This document shows, in pieces, positions 184 through 7,072 of a stretch of 64,000 bases of DNA. Below the pieces are notes generated by a model. It was not told the origin of the DNA. It made no database searches and saw nothing but the letters and a program-made list of their open reading frames with translations. The stretch's first letter is position 1. Each line of letters begins with the position of its first letter. Source of the DNA: Acidithiobacillus sp. (lineage in GTDB: Bacteria > Pseudomonadota > Gammaproteobacteria > Acidithiobacillales > Acidithiobacillaceae); the NCBI GenBank assembly GCA_028697715.1, contig JAQVDS010000010.1, positions 1 to 64,000 on the forward strand. The letters are read 5' to 3'. A program made the position numbers and the translations under genes.

Positions 184-260
184 GCGCTCGTAGCTCAGCC
201 GGATAGAGCAACTGACTACGAATCAGTAGGTCGGGAGTTCGAATCTCTCCGAGCGCGCCA
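184..260 (+). tRNA. tRNA-Arg (ACG)
   Basis: A complete cloverleaf: acceptor stem GCGCTCG (184-190) pairs with CGAGCGC (250-256), followed by a discriminator G and encoded CCA (258-260). The anticodon loop CTACGAA gives anticodon ACG. The T-arm GGAGTTCGAATCTCC is canonical. The 3' half of the gene is duplicated at 6060-6125, so this is the integration target of the adjacent element, and the tRNA stays intact after insertion. Confidence 0.96.
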
Positions 261-279
261 AATAAAACAGGCACTTAGG
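214..279 (+). repeat. attL (66 bp, overlaps tRNA-Arg 3' end)
   Basis: This 66-bp segment recurs at 6060-6125 with two differences, at 224 (c versus t) and 233 (g versus t). It covers the anticodon arm, T-arm, acceptor, CCA and 5' arm of the following terminator. An uninterrupted match of about 46 bp runs from the T-arm to 279. Confidence 0.9.
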
Positions 280-1154: not shown

Positions 1155-1612
1155 GCGTCGTCCCTCCTCAGTAGTCGCAAGTTCATCAGTAGCCGCTCCG
1201 CGTCGGTGATCGGAGTCACGCCAGCGAAGCCAGGCACGTTGTCGATCCGGTGCAGATCGGTGAACGGTGGCGCTTCGCTTTCAGTCTGGATCGCCTTGCG
1301 CTCCTCGCCTTCCTCCCAAATATCAGTTAGCACCTGAACTATTTGATGTCTAAAGTCGTCCAGCAATGGCAATAGCCATGCCGGTGCTTGTTCGACTTGC
1401 AGCTTGCCAGCGTTGTCTACCCAGATCCCACCGCCAGCCCTGACGATTGCCAGGGCAATCCGGCCTGCAACGTGCAATGGGTTTGCTATTGCTATAGTTG
1501 CTATTTTTGCTACTGTTCCGGGTCCATTCTCGCCTTTAGTAGCAACAGTAGCAGGAATAGCAGTAGCAACCTGGGCCAGACCGCCCTTGCGGATCAGGTC
1601 GGCGATCTTCAT
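1151..1612 (-). CDS. Small element protein with TVAK low-complexity stretch and TubC-like end
   Basis: The ATG at 1612 overlaps the stop of the DUF3987 gene (ATGA), which sets the start and gives 153 aa; the open frame upstream is a shadow of the neighbour. Residues about 10-45 are low complexity (repeats of VAT, TVAK and IAIAN). A segment follows of the form IVRAGGGIWVDNAGKL with helices ending in LLPLLDDFRHQIVQVL. That tail resembles the TubC_N-type docking fold seen in proteins of mobile elements, by pattern only. The C-terminus is acidic then basic. Function unknown. Confidence 0.65.
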   Translation of the reverse strand: MKIADLIRKGGLAQVATAIPATVATKGENGPGTVAKIATIAIANPLHVAGRIALAIVRAGGGIWVDNAGKLQVEQAPAWLLPLLDDFRHQIVQVLTDIWEEGEERKAIQTESEAPPFTDLHRIDNVPGFAGVTPITDAERLLMNLRLLRRDDA

Positions 1613-3120
1613 AGCAACCGACCTTCCAGAAGCGCAGGGTTGATGTCCAAGTACAGCCTCCTGCCATCTTTCACGAGCTGTACTCGGTCCAAGTCGGCAA
1701 GCTCTGATATGGCCGAATCCAGGCGCGCCCCGTCCCGTATTGGCCCATGCTGCCGAACGTGGCTTTTCCCTACCGTGGTCGTTAGCCTGCTTTTGCAATA
1801 GTCGATTAGCCAGTTGTCCAGCCTCGCCGCGTCTGCCAGCTCAACGGGTAGCGCCAGCTCACCGAAAAATCGCCGCGATTCGTTTAGGTGCCATGCCGCG
1901 ATCCTACCTGCACTTTCAAAAGCAGGTAGACCGACTGCCGCGCCCATCCCAGACTCAAAGAACTGGAATAGCGCCGCCAGCCGCGCCGCATTGTCAGCGG
2001 ACTTTGCTGCCACGTCCCGCACGTCGCACAGATCGCCGCCGCTCCCAAGTTCTGACTCGATGGCATCGTGGAAGGTTATCCAAGCCTTTTTGGCATCCGG
2101 TGCCAGTTTCATCATTGCAGGGGTCAGGGTGCCAGTCTCATCGTCGATTGGTGCCGGTTGGTTCAGAATCTCGGCGATGCGCCTGTTGAATGCTGCCAGT
2201 GCAGGCCAGCTTGCAGGGGGGGCGGTAAAGAACCGCGTCCCCTGGGTTGACTCCGGCCAAGCGACAAGGAAACGCGCAAGGAATCCAGTACCCCGCGCCA
2301 GTGCGCCTGATTTACTGAAAAAATCGCGCAAGGTCGCCTCCTGCACCTGCAACGCCACGGTCAGCCGCGCCCCGGCCACGGTGAAGGATTCGACGGTCCT
2401 TCGATCAATGGTCAGCGGCTTTCCGTCCCAAAGCTGGTTCAGTAAGGCCAGGTTCCGCATGGCAGTGTCTTTGCCCATCGCATGACCGCCGAACACGATA
2501 CCGGCCTCAGCGGATACCACGCCGCCAGAAGGCCATTGTTTCGCTAGTCCAAAGGCTAGGGCCTCCGGGGTCGCGTCTGCATACAACAGGCGAGGAACTC
2601 TAGGCGGATCTGGTCGCTCGTGTGCCAGCTTCCGAAGGTCGGCTTCTTTGTCGCCGGTAGGTTTGTTTTCCTTGGCAAGTTGCCTGATCTTTTCCTTGAT
2701 ACCTTGCTTCTTGGCTTCCCACGCCTCGATTGCCGCTTGATGCTCGTCCAGTAGTGGCTTTGCCTGGGTCCGTTGGGCCTCTTCGTATTCCGCGATAGCC
2801 TTACCGAACAGCGAATCGACCGTGCTTTTCCTCTCGCCTGAATCAGCGATGGTCAACAAATAGAGCCCGGATGGTCCGGTAAGCCTTGCCGCTCGCTCGA
2901 TGTCGATGTGCGCTTGGCAGGCCAGAGACATCGCGCCTATTGCGGACGCTACTACCAGAGCAGCAGGCGCCTTCACAAAATCTCTAACTTCCTCCGCAGC
3001 CGCGCGGATCGTCTCTGACAAAGCGTCAAGCGGATACGGTTCCGGCTCAATTTTTGCGGTCAATGGTTGCGGATTCGGCCATGCAGCCAGCTCAGCAGCT
3101 TCGTCTAGGTCATACGTCAT
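1609..3120 (-). CDS. DUF3987 (YfjI-like) protein
   Basis: A 503-residue protein of the DUF3987 family, common in prophages and integrative elements and usually thought to act in element replication. An early hydrophobic stretch (residues about 50-70) precedes a modified P-loop-like sequence, ADSGERKST, near residue 95. A charged coiled-coil region follows (about 105-160), then the conserved YADATPEALAFGLAKQWPSG block. The start at 3120 overlaps the stop of the upstream 65-aa gene (ATGA). It is the largest gene of the element and its best candidate for a replication function. No primase or helicase motif set is clear. Confidence 0.85.
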   Translation of the reverse strand: MTYDLDEAAELAAWPNPQPLTAKIEPEPYPLDALSETIRAAAEEVRDFVKAPAALVVASAIGAMSLACQAHIDIERAARLTGPSGLYLLTIADSGERKSTVDSLFGKAIAEYEEAQRTQAKPLLDEHQAAIEAWEAKKQGIKEKIRQLAKENKPTGDKEADLRKLAHERPDPPRVPRLLYADATPEALAFGLAKQWPSGGVVSAEAGIVFGGHAMGKDTAMRNLALLNQLWDGKPLTIDRRTVESFTVAGARLTVALQVQEATLRDFFSKSGALARGTGFLARFLVAWPESTQGTRFFTAPPASWPALAAFNRRIAEILNQPAPIDDETGTLTPAMMKLAPDAKKAWITFHDAIESELGSGGDLCDVRDVAAKSADNAARLAALFQFFESGMGAAVGLPAFESAGRIAAWHLNESRRFFGELALPVELADAARLDNWLIDYCKSRLTTTVGKSHVRQHGPIRDGARLDSAISELADLDRVQLVKDGRRLYLDINPALLEGRLL

Positions 3121-3316: not shown

Positions 3317-3568
3317 TTATACCTCCCCGCCAGCACGGCGCTGGGCGATCCATTCCGCAAGATCAGAGACACGATAACGCACAAGGCGGCCAGTCTTTAC
3401 GAATGGCAGGGCATATCGCCCCGTTGATCTCCAGTTGGTTAAGGTGTTGCACTTGATCCCGAGAACTTGCGCCGCCGTTTCCGCATCCACAAATACGGGG
3501 ACTTGTTCGGGGGTATATCCAAGAGTCCGCCCGATCTCGGCGGTAATTTTATCGACTGATGTTTGCAT
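3317..3568 (-). CDS. AlpA-like excisionase/regulator (HTH_17)
   Basis: An 83-aa protein with a MerR-like winged helix-turn-helix at about residues 25-75. It shows the hallmark order of this class: V-DAETAAQVLGI (helix-turn-helix), TLTNWRSTGRYALPF (recognition) and VRYRVSDLAEWIAQR (wing and last helix). AlpA/Xis-type proteins direct excision or activate integrase and replication genes in P4-like elements. It is the first gene of the replication-side operon and is preceded by direct repeats at 3634-3669, which are candidate binding sites. The ATG at 3568 has only a weak ribosome site. Confidence 0.85.
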   Translation of the reverse strand: MQTSVDKITAEIGRTLGYTPEQVPVFVDAETAAQVLGIKCNTLTNWRSTGRYALPFVKTGRLVRYRVSDLAEWIAQRRAGGEV

Positions 3569-3616
3569 CGCTGTATCCTCACGTTGATGAATAACGTAAG
3601 GTGACGATACAGAGAG

Positions 3617-3669
3617 AAAAAAAGGCGCGTAATTTGGCTATACGCGTAGCGCCTTGGCTATACGCGTAG
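3617..3669 (-). promoter_or_regulatory. Direct-repeat operator and leader terminator before the AlpA-like gene
   Basis: Two identical 16-bp repeats, ttggctatacgcgtag, lie at 3634-3649 and 3654-3669, exactly 20 bp apart; a partial third (cgcgtaa) is at 3626-3632. Each holds the self-complementary core TACGCGTA. On the minus strand, GGCGC (3653-3649) can pair with GCGCC (3628-3624), followed by seven T (3623-3617). This is a possible terminator or attenuator overlapping the repeats. A C9T7 tract (3672-3687) flanks the array. The repeats probably bind the AlpA-like protein or a replication protein; this is inferred from position. Confidence 0.6.
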
Positions 3670-3701
3670 AGCCCCCCCCCTTTTTTTATAAGCGCAAGCA
3701 T

Positions 3702-4172
3702 CTATTTTTGCCTGCTCGGCTTCAACCAAGCTCTGATTTGCTCGCGCGCTCGATCCGTCGCTTCCATGCTGGCAAGGTTAGCGCCGAGTTCAACGGCCCA
3801 TTGCATCGCCAGCGGTGCGAGTTTCGCCGCTATCTGGTTCTTGGATATTTTGGGGTTCTTCTGCCTAAGGCTATCTGCCTCCGCCAGCACTTTCCCGCGA
3901 AGTTCGCCGGCGGGAGCGTGCCTGCTTTTTATGGCATGAGTCGCGGATACTTTTACGGCTTTTTTTGCGATCTCTGGGGCCTTGTGGCTTGCCAGGACAT
4001 CCCAAGGAAGAGACTGATTGGCTATTTCCCGCGTAAGTCGATCGACAAATGCCACCATATGAGCCGACTGACTGATAACCGGATCGGATTTCATTTCTTC
4101 CATCTTTTCCATGAATCGGGTCGCTGCTTCTAGCCACGTCAGCAGCTCTTTTGCATGTGGATCATTCGTCAT
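3702..4172 (-). CDS. Hypothetical basic protein with a C-terminal HTH-like segment
   Basis: The start at 4172 (MTNDPHAK, 156 aa) is preferred over the longer frame, because the extra N-terminus overlaps the DUF2283 gene and lacks a family-like sequence. The N-terminal half is helical and charged. The C-terminal part reads KNPKISKNQIAAKLAP, then DRAREQIRAWLK. That resembles a short helix-turn-helix seen in small proteins of integrative elements, and suggests DNA binding. It lies between the integrase-side genes and the AlpA-like operon. No function assigned. Confidence 0.65.
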   Translation of the reverse strand: MTNDPHAKELLTWLEAATRFMEKMEEMKSDPVISQSAHMVAFVDRLTREIANQSLPWDVLASHKAPEIAKKAVKVSATHAIKSRHAPAGELRGKVLAEADSLRQKNPKISKNQIAAKLAPLAMQWAVELGANLASMEATDRAREQIRAWLKPSRQK

Positions 4173-4264
4173 ACATTCGCGCTCCCTTTCGGAATAGGAC
4201 CACCAGCAGGCCGGGAAGGGTGCCCGACTTTTCCCGCCGTCGCGGTATCTGGTGGCGTAAACTG

Positions 4265-4453
4265 TCAGGCAGCGTGCTGAGGAATCGGCCACGCTCCTGA
4301 TGCTTTGGCATCCAATATGACAATCTCCACAATAGTGCCGTCCTCAGCGTATGCGACATTCAGGTTCCAATCCTGGGATACTTCCCGAGTGACTGGCTTA
4401 TCGGAAAACTGCAGTACCAGAATATCGTCAGCTGGTTCGTACTGGGCTTTCAT
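4265..4453 (-). CDS. DUF2283 protein (putative antitoxin partner)
   Basis: A 62-aa protein starting at 4453 (MKAQYEPADDILVLQFSD). It has the DUF2283 signature: a YxxxxDxLxIxF-like start, followed by V-Y-EDGTIVEIVILDA strands. DUF2283 proteins are commonly encoded beside DUF4258 proteins and have been proposed as toxin-antitoxin-like pairs. Here the start overlaps the DUF4258 stop by ATGA. The C-terminal residues after ILDA are poorly conserved. The antitoxin role is inferred from the pairing. Confidence 0.8.
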   Translation of the reverse strand: MKAQYEPADDILVLQFSDKPVTREVSQDWNLNVAYAEDGTIVEIVILDAKASGAWPIPQHAA

Positions 4454-4704
4454 GGGGAAACCTCCCAATGGGTCATGATGGTTTTAACGATCAAGGCGTC
4501 TTCGAGGAGAGCAGCCACGCACAAGAGGTTGTCTTGCCGTTCAGCAAACTCCCGGTATATCCATATCCGGCGCTCATCCTTGGCACGAACGGTGCCATGC
4601 TCGATGATCGCCAACAGCTCCGCATCGGTGACGCCACGTTCCTGCATCCTACTTCGAGCATGATGGGTCAGAATGACCGTTCGATCAAAACGCGAGCTAT
4701 GCAC
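4450..4704 (-). CDS. DUF4258 protein (putative toxin partner)
   Basis: An 84-aa protein with the DUF4258 hallmark TxHARxRMxERGVTDAEL near residues 13-30, followed by IEHGTV and strands ending in ALIVKTIMT. Some members of this RelE/BrnT-like fold act as RNase toxins; that role is an inference here. The gene overlaps the 3' end of the integrase by 8 bp and the DUF2283 gene by 4 bp. The three are therefore likely cotranscribed, tying a possible maintenance module directly to the integrase message. Confidence 0.82.
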   Translation of the reverse strand: MHSSRFDRTVILTHHARSRMQERGVTDAELLAIIEHGTVRAKDERRIWIYREFAERQDNLLCVAALLEDALIVKTIMTHWEVSP

Positions 4705-5899
4705 TGCGCTTGCCTTTCTTCATCGGCACAATCTCGGCGGTATCCTTCACACCCGCAGCAGCGAGGATGGCAGCGGCTCCCTTTTCCATTGCGTCCCGTA
4801 CGGGGTCTAGCGCCAGCCGTGCATAAACCGCGGTAGTTTGTTGGGACTGGTGCCCTAATGCCTTGCCGATCACTGCCAAGGTCGCGCCTGCATCGATCTG
4901 GAAACTCGCCAGACTGCGCCGCAGATCGTGCAAGCGAAGATCCTCGATGCCTGCCCGTTTCAGCAGCGTAGCCCATGCCCTCTTTGGCTCTACCAGGTGC
5001 CCGGTCTTGCCGGGTCCTGGGAGTACCCATCCTTGCCCACCATAGGTAGTTTTGCGACGTTGCAGGATGTCCAGAGCGGCACTGCTCAGCGGCACCTCGA
5101 TAGCTTCTCCGGCCTTGGCCTTGGCGCTTGGGATGCGCCACAGAGCGCGCTCTAGGTTAATCTCCTGCCAGTGCATCGCCAAGACGTTACTGCGCCGCGC
5201 TCCGGTCAGCAGAGAGAGCAAAACATAGTCCCGGAAGTCGGGATTCTCCGTCTCTGCCAGCGCATCAAAAAACCTTGGCAGTTCGTCGGGATGTAGACGC
5301 CGGTCCCGGCTTTCTTCTCGGTGCAATTTGATCCCGGCGGCAGGGTTTGGGATGTTCAAATCCAGTTCCTTGATGCCGAAGTTGAACACGGCACGGACCA
5401 GCGCCAGCACTCGATTTGCTTGGTAGACACCAGACGCCGCGCCGATTTTCTGGTGAAGGGTTCGGATTTGCTGGCGCGTGATGTCAGATAGCTTCTTCTT
5501 GGCGAGTCCTTGCAGGTGCAGGCGGTAGTTGTTCTGGTCGTTGCTCAGACTACGCTTGGCAGCCTTCGCCTTCACCCATTGCGCGAACAAGTCAGAGAAA
5601 GTCATTTCCGCCTTGCGGATGCGCTTCTGCTCGGCGGGGTTCTGCCCGGCGGCGATGTCGTTGATGATCTTGGCGGCGGCGGTGCGCGCGTTCTCGATGG
5701 TGACGGTCTGAGCGTCGCCAATGCGGACCCACTCCGTTCTTACGGCGACCTTGCGAACACAATAGTAGGTCTTGGCCCCAGCAGGAGTGACGCGGATGCA
5801 GAGGCCAGCTTGCCTGGTGTCGTAGACGGTGACGCGCTTCTTCGAATCCGGTTGCAGGTTCGCAATCGCCGCCTTGGTGAAGTTGATCCGCTCTGCCAT
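4697..5899 (-). CDS. int: P4-type tyrosine integrase
   Basis: A 400-aa site-specific recombinase with an N-terminal DUF4102 arm-binding domain (residues about 3-85: NFTKAAIANL, YDTRQAGLCIRVTPAG). A SAM-like core-binding domain follows (about 95-185), then the catalytic domain (about 200-375). Catalytic residues visible are Arg in LTGARRSNVLAM, His/Arg in LHDLRRSLAS, His in LGHQS and Tyr in TTAVYARL. It sits 160 bp from attR and reads inward. It should integrate the element at the 3' end of tRNA-Arg. Length and motifs are normal, so it is probably functional. Confidence 0.96.
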   Translation of the reverse strand: MAERINFTKAAIANLQPDSKKRVTVYDTRQAGLCIRVTPAGAKTYYCVRKVAVRTEWVRIGDAQTVTIENARTAAAKIINDIAAGQNPAEQKRIRKAEMTFSDLFAQWVKAKAAKRSLSNDQNNYRLHLQGLAKKKLSDITRQQIRTLHQKIGAASGVYQANRVLALVRAVFNFGIKELDLNIPNPAAGIKLHREESRDRRLHPDELPRFFDALAETENPDFRDYVLLSLLTGARRSNVLAMHWQEINLERALWRIPSAKAKAGEAIEVPLSSAALDILQRRKTTYGGQGWVLPGPGKTGHLVEPKRAWATLLKRAGIEDLRLHDLRRSLASFQIDAGATLAVIGKALGHQSQQTTAVYARLALDPVRDAMEKGAAAILAAAGVKDTAEIVPMKKGKRSA

Positions 5900-6059
5900 G
5901 ACTGCCTCCTTGTGACCCTCTGACAGGTTAGCCGGGCTAACCCTGGGCTAACCTTTTTGCGGTAATTCGGGTGATGTTGATAAAGGCAGTATCTCCGTAT
6001 CTGTTTGTTTTGTCAAAGTTCGGTGATATTCGTAAACCTCGATAAAAGCTATACCCAGA

Positions 6060-6125
6060 GACTACGAATTAGTAGGTCTGGAGTTCGAATCTCTCCGAGC
6101 GCGCCAAATAAAACAGGCACTTAGG
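6060..6125 (+). repeat. attR (66-bp copy of the tRNA-Arg 3' end)
   Basis: This copy of 214-279 differs at two positions (t at 6070, t at 6079). It is not a tRNA gene because the D-arm and 5' acceptor are missing. The perfect block runs from the T-arm to 6125. Confidence 0.9.
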
Positions 6126-6142
6126 CAACAGCTTAAGTGCCT
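6115..6142 (+). terminator. Terminator reformed at attR
   Basis: Arm aggcacttagg (6115-6125, inside att) pairs with cttaagtgcct (6132-6142), 11 pairs with one G-T, followed by ttctttta. This is presumably the original chromosomal terminator of tRNA-Arg before integration. Confidence 0.75.
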
Positions 6143-6304
6143 TTCTTTTAGCCTGCCGCCTTGGGGTCTGACAAGCAGCTGTGGCTGATGCAGAGTGGGG
6201 GTGAGGTGAGCTGACTTTCCCGAAAATGTCATCTACACTTCATACTTAGTGGAGAATTATGGTGGTAATCTAGGCTCCATTAAAAAATCGGCTCAGGAGG
6301 AGAT

Positions 6305-6544
6305 ATGAGATCGGAACACCAGGATCTGTTGTCGGAATTTCCAGAATTGATCGAGAAAATGCAAGCGCTCAGGGAAGAATCTCCACACTTCGAGAAGTTG
6401 CTGAACGAGTTTAAATCAGTCACCCTGGAGATCGAGCACATCGAACGGAGTGATGCTGCCTCAGGGAGCACCTCTTTGGAAGAGCTGAAGAAAAAGCGTT
6501 TGGCCATCAAGGATGAGGTCTATCAGATGGCGAGTTCCAAGTGA
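6305..6544 (+). CDS. DUF465 / YdcH-family protein
   Basis: A 79-aa, highly charged, coiled-coil protein of the DUF465 (YdcH/SlyX-like) family. It has the typical motif LLSEFPELIEKMQALREESPHF, then H-I-E, and ends with LEELKKKRLAIKDEVYQM. CAGGAGGA lies 5 bases before the ATG. Function is unknown in the family. It is a single gene just outside attR and has its own terminator. It belongs to the host chromosome, not to the element. Confidence 0.85.
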   Translation: MRSEHQDLLSEFPELIEKMQALREESPHFEKLLNEFKSVTLEIEHIERSDAASGSTSLEELKKKRLAIKDEVYQMASSK

Positions 6545-6566
6545 CAGAATCTTCTCTGCTTCACTA

Positions 6567-6591
6567 GATCCCTGAGCCGAGCTCAGGGATC
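6567..6591 (+). terminator. Terminator after the DUF465 gene
   Basis: A perfect 10-bp stem, gatccctgag (6567-6576) with ctcagggatc (6582-6591), 5-nt loop, then TTT. It separates this gene from the convergent Fur-family gene. Confidence 0.85.
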
Positions 6592-6637
6592 TTTCCTGGC
6601 TATCGCATGATCTGGACCACGGAAGCAAGCACTGGGC

Positions 6638-7072
6638 TTACTGCCGCAGACGCGACGCTTCTGACACCGGTTTACGCTTGCGTACGCGCAACACGATGTC
6701 GACTTCTTCCAGTTCGGTATCTTCCGGCAGCTGAGGTTGCTGCGCCAGCCGAAGGTGCTGGGCTGGGATATCCATCAGATCGCCAGTGTCGACATAATAA
6801 AAATGGTGGTGGGGTGCAACATTGGAGTCGTAGAAGACTTTCCCGGGCTCCACAATGACCTCCCGAACCAACCCGTGTTGCGCAAACAGGCCCAGGGTAT
6901 TGTAAACCGTAGCTTTGGATACGACGGCGTAATCCGCGTTCACGCGCTGCATGATTTCTTCGGCAGAGAGGTGAGCATGCTCGGCAAACAGGATGTACCC
7001 GATCTCCACCCGTTGACTGGTCGGATTCACTCCTGCATTCCGTAGGGTTTCCAAAACTTCCTGTTTGTTCAT
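6638..7072 (-). CDS. Fur-family transcriptional regulator
   Basis: A 144-aa Fur/PerR/Irr-type metalloregulator. The winged helix covers residues about 5-80 (NPTSQRVEIGYILF, LSAEEIMQRV, SKATVYNTLGLFAQHGLV). The dimerisation part has the metal-binding segment APHHHFYYVDTGDLMDI. No CxxC structural zinc pair is seen, so it resembles Irr/Mur more than classical Fur. The start at 7072 has AAGGG four bases upstream; a TTG at 7123 would give 161 aa without a ribosome site. It follows thiO on the same strand with repeated 9-mers between them (7091-7123), suggesting its own promoter and autoregulation. Confidence 0.88.
   Translation of the reverse strand: MNKQEVLETLRNAGVNPTSQRVEIGYILFAEHAHLSAEEIMQRVNADYAVVSKATVYNTLGLFAQHGLVREVIVEPGKVFYDSNVAPHHHFYYVDTGDLMDIPAQHLRLAQQPQLPEDTELEEVDIVLRVRKRKPVSEASRLRQ

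Follow-up and report, generated by a model that had tools for sequence, protein, structure and literature searches.

A repeat array behind the gene preceding alpA is probably an operator in a phage-satellite-like integrative element of Acidithiobacillus

The window analysed here, a stretch of 64,000 nucleotides from an Acidithiobacillus sp. contig (JAQVDS010000010.1), carries a 5,846-bp (~5.8-kb) element that lies in tRNA-Arg and is bounded by 66-bp attachment repeats (Table 1). On the minus strand the integrase gene is followed by genes for DUF4258 and DUF2283 proteins, by the gene for a protein termed p156, by an AlpA-like gene, a 78-aa ORF, a DUF3987 gene and smaller ORFs. The DUF4258 and DUF2283 genes are adjacent (4265–4704, minus strand) and possibly form a toxin–antitoxin-like pair; the DUF4258 frame shares 8 nt with the integrase gene. 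Between the end of p156 at 3702 and the ATG of the AlpA-like gene at 3568 lies an array of short repeats, and the array segment, p156 and the AlpA-like gene each have a single match in their own genome. An int-alpA RNA (RF02996) is present in the element as the leader of p156, but is located ~510 bp from the repeats on the opposite side of p156, and the repeats are not part of RF02996.

Table 1. Positions in the window of the element's ends, of its main genes and of the features around the repeat array
Feature	Position	Strand	Remarks
Attachment repeat at tRNA-Arg	214–279	.	64/66 identical to other copy
DUF3987 helicase/primase-type gene	1609–3120	-	Pfam E 3.3e-96; phrog_2373 DNA helicase
AlpA-like gene (HTH_17)	3317–3568	-	Pfam HTH_17 E 2.8e-9; phrog_66 excisionase and regulator
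alpA leader hairpin, Shine-Dalgarno in 3' arm	3573–3610	-	Directly downstream of array
T7 run of proposed terminator, not conserved	3617–3623	-	A7 on + strand
Conserved half-copy AATTACGC, GGCGC behind	3624–3635	-	Same position in L172, L183, L188
Repeat unit adjoining alpA, gene strand GGCGCTACGCGTATAGCCAA	3634–3653	-	
Repeat unit adjoining p156, 18-bp core GGCTCTACGCGTATAGCC	3654–3673	-	
p156, proposed array-reading regulator	3702–4172	-	Comparison of homologues
int-alpA RNA (RF02996), p156 leader	4185–4255	-	56.3 bits vs gathering score 35.8
Integrase	4697–5899	-	Pfam Phage_integrase E 2e-24
Attachment repeat, other end	6060–6125	.	Closes 5,846-bp element

The array consists of two 20-bp units that are 95% identical to each other, each of which forms an imperfect 18-bp palindrome, a feature absent from the first-pass annotation of this DNA. 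That annotation had listed two exact 16-bp repeats at 20-bp spacing, and TTGGCTATACGCGTAG is indeed present without mismatch at 3634–3649 and 3654–3669; the repeats extend to 3673, 4 bp past the end that had been assigned to them (3669). It is the sole 16-mer in the 64-kb window that is repeated at a start-to-start distance of 8–60 bp, and a search with the 18-mer, allowing up to three mismatches, returned four matches in the window, namely each of the two units in either orientation, where shuffled sequence predicts 0.11. On these results and the tandem-palindrome scan described below, a chance origin of the repeats is rejected. The third, partial copy that had also been listed is real, and its core is conserved at the loci L172, L183 and L188, reading AATTACGC in the window and in L183, AATTATGC in L172 and AATTACAGC in L188. 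An A+T-richer AATTA stands behind the units. Directly before the first unit on the gene strand there is a G run with A7 in front of it, the resulting A7G9 (3674–3688) being a possible slippage site; the G run is also found in L172 and L183, and not in L188.

L172, L183 and L188 are the places of the p156 homologues, three loci in two other genomes among the 29 family genomes searched (its own included), with 33–38% identity. Each homologue has three units, repeated every 20 bp, that begin near its stop codon or follow it, the first unit in L188 overlapping the end of the ORF, so that 4/4 p156 genes have palindromic units of this period at the stop codon. The first-pass annotation had counted a lack of conservation in related elements against its reading, and in these three loci the repeats are conserved. 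The core of the unit varies (TACGCGTA in the window, TGCNNGCA in most other units), and the outer GGC...AGCC and the trailing AATTA are largely retained. A scan of 1,347,362 bases for tandem palindromes (two 18-mers 20 bp apart, at least 13/18 identical and each at least 6/9 palindromic), with a cut above the level of the L188 array, matched only the window and two of the three homologue loci (as L003, L004 and loci overlapping them).

Beyond these loci, exact unit patterns were found in none of the viral contigs, and a stricter unit pattern from a relative in none of 369 genomes; a loose 14-base pattern occurs in at least 120 stretches of viral contigs, and a tandem scan of the loci fetched from among them detected no array. 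Searching plasmids and phages by blastn with the L183/L004 array gave weak partial matches only (E of at least 0.5). The DUF3987 relatives outside the family (L189–L200, L006) have no such array; a weak 20-bp pair precedes the alpA gene in L199 (6686–6723, GGCAATTGCCA / GGCACTTGCCA), while L171 and L198 show weak pairs spaced 18 and 22 bp apart. The upstream neighbours of the L199 alpA gene, on the other strand, resemble umuD and umuC by eye. Pfam, PHROGs and NCBIfam assign the p156 protein to no family, and no DNA-binding domain is recognised in it by searches of these and of the PDB, where nothing useful was retrieved, and its single-sequence structure model is poor (pLDDT 52). No match to p156 was found in phages and plasmids, no relative was confirmed in viral contigs, and the 369 class genomes contain one marginal match beyond the window (E 0.004).

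Comparison of relatives points to the gene with which the array travels. An AlpA-like gene is present at 20 places in 14 of the 29 family genomes, and only three of these places (window, L172, L183) have p156 and the array. The AlpA proteins of L182 and L183 are 94% identical, and p156 with its array is found in L183 alone; those of the three array-bearing loci have a mutual identity of 59–65%. Clustering separates the helicase-type genes found at the p156 loci (C15 in the window, C12 in L172 and C3 in L188, the L183 contig ending before this gene), and the gene after the array in L188 is of no recognised family. When 15 loci were compared in pairs with different regulator class (classes being taken from clustering and reading of C-termini, with L180 assigned to C6b by eye), a DNA alignment across the alpA start was obtained in 39/90 pairs and none in the remaining 51/90. 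The 5' ends of these 39 alignments range from -97 to 0 (median -41), which for most of them means a position past the repeats but ahead of the alpA leader hairpin, or else the ATG itself; the L178/L180 alignment starts at -96/-97, and one repeat type is common to both loci. Same-class pairs are mixed, in that L171/L176 and L175/L177 align through the repeats and several others lose homology before them. On the other side, homology ends 6–15 nt past the regulator start codon in three of five inspected pairs (L182/L183, L169/L173 and L177/L178), spanning the int-alpA leader and stopping just beyond that codon, whereas it ends just before the place of the int-alpA leader in L170/L173 and much earlier in L175/L180. 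The sequence behind the int-alpA RNA is conserved up to the start codons of regulators of different families. The simplest account would be that regulator gene and repeats are exchanged as one cassette, with the caveat that only four p156 genes are known and that physical linkage alone could carry the repeats along with the gene. The regulator of L178 consists of two overlapping frames of 139 and 185 aa (oriented 6031–6886), possibly a frameshift.

Both borders of the putative cassette are marked by RNA features. In 10/21 loci (window, L169, L173, L175, L177, L178, L180, L182, L183 and L185) the int-alpA RNA, scored at the gathering cut-off, immediately precedes the start codon of the gene that lies before alpA; this position suggests that the RNA, typed as sRNA in Rfam, is a leader acting in cis on that gene. 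At the other border, the alpA leader is predicted to fold into a hairpin with z<=-2 in 21/30 and z<=-1.5 in 24/30 alpA-type leaders, close relatives among these 30 not being independent, compared with 4/83 and 7/83 leaders of other genes; the leaders that fail the second cut are those of L179, L186 (-1.50), L187, L203, L204 and L209. The two sets are separated less well than by z when one asks whether 3 nt or more of the Shine-Dalgarno region lie in a 3' arm (27/30 alpA-type leaders vs 47/83 others). The arm sequences differ between groups of loci, an alignment of 21 leaders with MAFFT leaves two hairpin types that are not in register, and for the hairpin in the window there is no Rfam family at E<=1. 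The hairpin may protect alpA against translation of read-through mRNA, a role for which the leaders of transposons are the comparison.

A second family of regulators, C6, carries repeats of its own at the stop codon (AAACGGC-type or AATT-centred in C6a, GGCATTT-type in C6b), and members in distant Proteobacteria likewise have such repeats, in most cases ahead of alpA. With profiles of the C6a C-terminus, 369 class genomes and 398 phylum genomes each gave five matching places, of which one is common to both sets, and two of these ten matches (L198 and the G177 place) arise by construction, as their sequences were in the profiles. L204, L208, L209 and L210 have CCTAATTAGG or CCGAATTCGG twice, 20–21 bp apart and directly behind the stop codon, with one imperfect copy in L209, and L202 and L203 show a weaker form. 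The next gene passes the Pfam AlpA or HTH_17 cut-off in 7/9 distant C6a loci (not in L205 and L207), and an integrase gene directly precedes the regulator in 5/8 fetched distant regions. In 105-nt stretches around the stop codon, direct repeats were detected at p<=0.017 for 16/21 regulators (p156, C6a and C6b; 300 shuffles) and at p<=0.01 for 13/21, the misses at p<=0.017 being L185, L198, L203, L205 and L207; the figures for control ORFs, which include overlapping or opposite-strand ORFs, are 14/166 at p<=0.02 and 8/166 at p<=0.01 (200 shuffles). Five regulators left out of this set were tested separately, and significance was reached by L175 and not by L177 (p 0.083), nor by L169, L181 and L182, which are outside the p156 and C6 families. 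The C6a C-terminus weakly matches the DNA-binding domain of the Sleeping Beauty transposase (E 0.0017), and a comparison of p156 with the C6a profile gave no similarity. L202–L204 and L208–L210 (regions L211–L213 and L216–L218), in distant phylum genomes, have in common a C-terminal domain without a Pfam family behind differing N-termini; AATT-centred repeats come next, and then an AlpA-type gene.

The array could in principle act as DNA or as RNA. In the consensus of the 11 p156 units, GGCGCTGCNNGCATAGCC, both partners vary in pairs 1/18 and 7/12, and the inner pairs 4/15 and 5/14 are Watson-Crick in only 3/11 units, most others keeping the same mismatch. A DNA site read by a dimer would fit this pattern better than a base-paired RNA. 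A working RNA would be a terminator or attenuator at the end of the p156 transcript, insulating alpA from integrase-side transcription, and in all four loci the array as RNA is predicted to form one long imperfect hairpin (z -3.05 in the window, -1.03 in L172, -1.51 in L183 and -2.44 in L188), followed in the window by T7. The leader terminator of the first-pass annotation is present in its parts, with GGCGC at 3624–3628, GCGCC at 3649–3653 and A7 at 3617–3623 on the plus strand. However, the fold favours the single hairpin of two units, a T run is absent from the same place in the three p156 relatives, and a simple terminator scan (loops <=8) lists nothing at the array, so that the combination of a GC-rich stem and a directly following conserved T run is not found. 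With a T run in the window alone, a terminator or attenuator is rejected as the general function. The repeats of the C6 regulators, moreover, are mostly direct and not hairpin-like, and we regard a function as RNA as quite improbable.

As to proteins that might bind the DNA, the units were also suggested to be iterons of the element's replication origin, which would be bound by a replication-side initiator or by p156 acting as initiator. The 20-bp tandem units, the A+T-richer AATTA behind them and the nearby helicase-type gene would suit an origin, and iterons are reported for Gram-negative phage-inducible chromosomal islands (PICIs) in the accessible text of PMC6092414. Nevertheless, the array is retained next to replication genes of different clusters, swaps together with the gene that precedes alpA, and is lacking in the DUF3987 relatives outside the family. 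Because its distribution follows that preceding gene rather than the replication genes, the origin idea is weaker than the operator reading and appears unlikely. The annotation had further suggested that a protein bound to the repeats could act between integrase-side and replication-side genes, and the array does have the features of a protein-binding site and lies at that junction; the AlpA-like protein and p156 had been named as possible binders. The array adjoins alpA, and AlpA activates its own expression in EcCICFT073 (accessible text of PMC6092414), so that autoactivation through the array is conceivable. By contrast, AlpA proteins of 94% identity occur with and without the array, and array-bearing ones are only 59–65% identical; AlpA was rejected as the reader on this ground, and a site for it is very improbable. 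The comparison of relatives argues for p156 as the likely reader.

We therefore favour, as the probable reading, that the repeats are an operator array for p156 which controls the alpA–DUF3987 side of a phage-satellite-like integrative element. An oligomer of p156, a dimer or higher, would bind the two palindromic units (three in the relatives), which are two helical turns apart. The units end 65 bp before the AlpA-like start codon and, once bound, would set the output of the alpA–helicase promoter, which is assumed to lie between p156 and alpA, as a sigma-70 consensus scan listed none there. Repression is the more likely sign of this control, given that AlpA by itself is enough to activate satellites of this kind: expression of alpA is sufficient for excision of PICMI115 (accessible text of PMC10803314), and AlpA of EcCICFT073 is an activator (accessible text of PMC6092414). 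Activation by p156 is possible instead, since PICMI115 cannot excise without iolg, the gene at the equivalent position (PMC10803314, same text). The p156 gene and its array would form an exchangeable cassette between the int-alpA RNA leader and the hairpin in which the Shine-Dalgarno sequence of alpA is paired, and their exchange may set what wakes the element up.

More tentatively, and with considerable doubt, alpA-type satellites of Proteobacteria may share a control locus, in which swappable cassettes, placed between a leader (often the int-alpA RNA) and an alpA hairpin blocking translation of read-through mRNA, would be the so far unrecognised master regulators of Gram-negative satellites that choose the helper phage to which the element responds and give mutual immunity to elements with the same cassette. 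Whether Gram-negative islands have a global repressor is described as unclear in the accessible text of PMC6092414, and p156 is a candidate for it. The locus offers a candidate protein together with its likely site, as well as relatives in which cassettes appear to have been swapped naturally, and attaches a likely target to gene families without annotation.

Among described elements, Gram-negative PICIs with iterons resemble this one in their short tandem units and helicase/primase-type gene, but there two sets flank an AT-rich region, whereas here a single set was found between p156 and alpA, adjoining alpA and following the upstream gene (accessible text of PMC6092414). The likeness to PICMI of Vibrionaceae (int-iolg-alpA-up1-prim), as far as the accessible text of PMC10803314 describes it, comprises a size of ~6 kb, an integrase, an AlpA-like protein and a DUF3987-type primase in the same order, with int and alpA separated by a gene that belongs to no known family; the p156 homologue of L188 overlaps int by 4 nt, as iolg does, whereas p156 in the window has no such overlap and the DUF4258 gene overlaps instead. 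The combination of integrase, AlpA and DUF3987/DUF5906 primase of the PICMI model is present, and integration is not behind fis, as in the dedicated model, but at attachment repeats in tRNA-Arg, so that the element is PICMI-like and not classed as a PICMI (PMC10803314). In the same partial text, alpA, up1 and prim of PICMI115 make up an early regulon induced by phage, how it is activated is described as an open question, and no repeats are described behind iolg (PMC10803314). In the accessible parts of the open-licence literature neither an alpA leader hairpin nor repeats following the gene that precedes alpA were seen described, and an earlier description elsewhere is possible. In lambdoid phages and with the Stl repressors of SaPIs, regulator gene and sites are exchanged as a unit among related elements. 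Unlike in those immunity cassettes, the proteins here are unrelated as far as compared and the sites are at the 3' end of the regulator gene. The likeness, drawn here from sequence, with binding and immunity putative, is that gene and sites are swapped as one unit, which is complete on both sides in three of the five inspected pairs.
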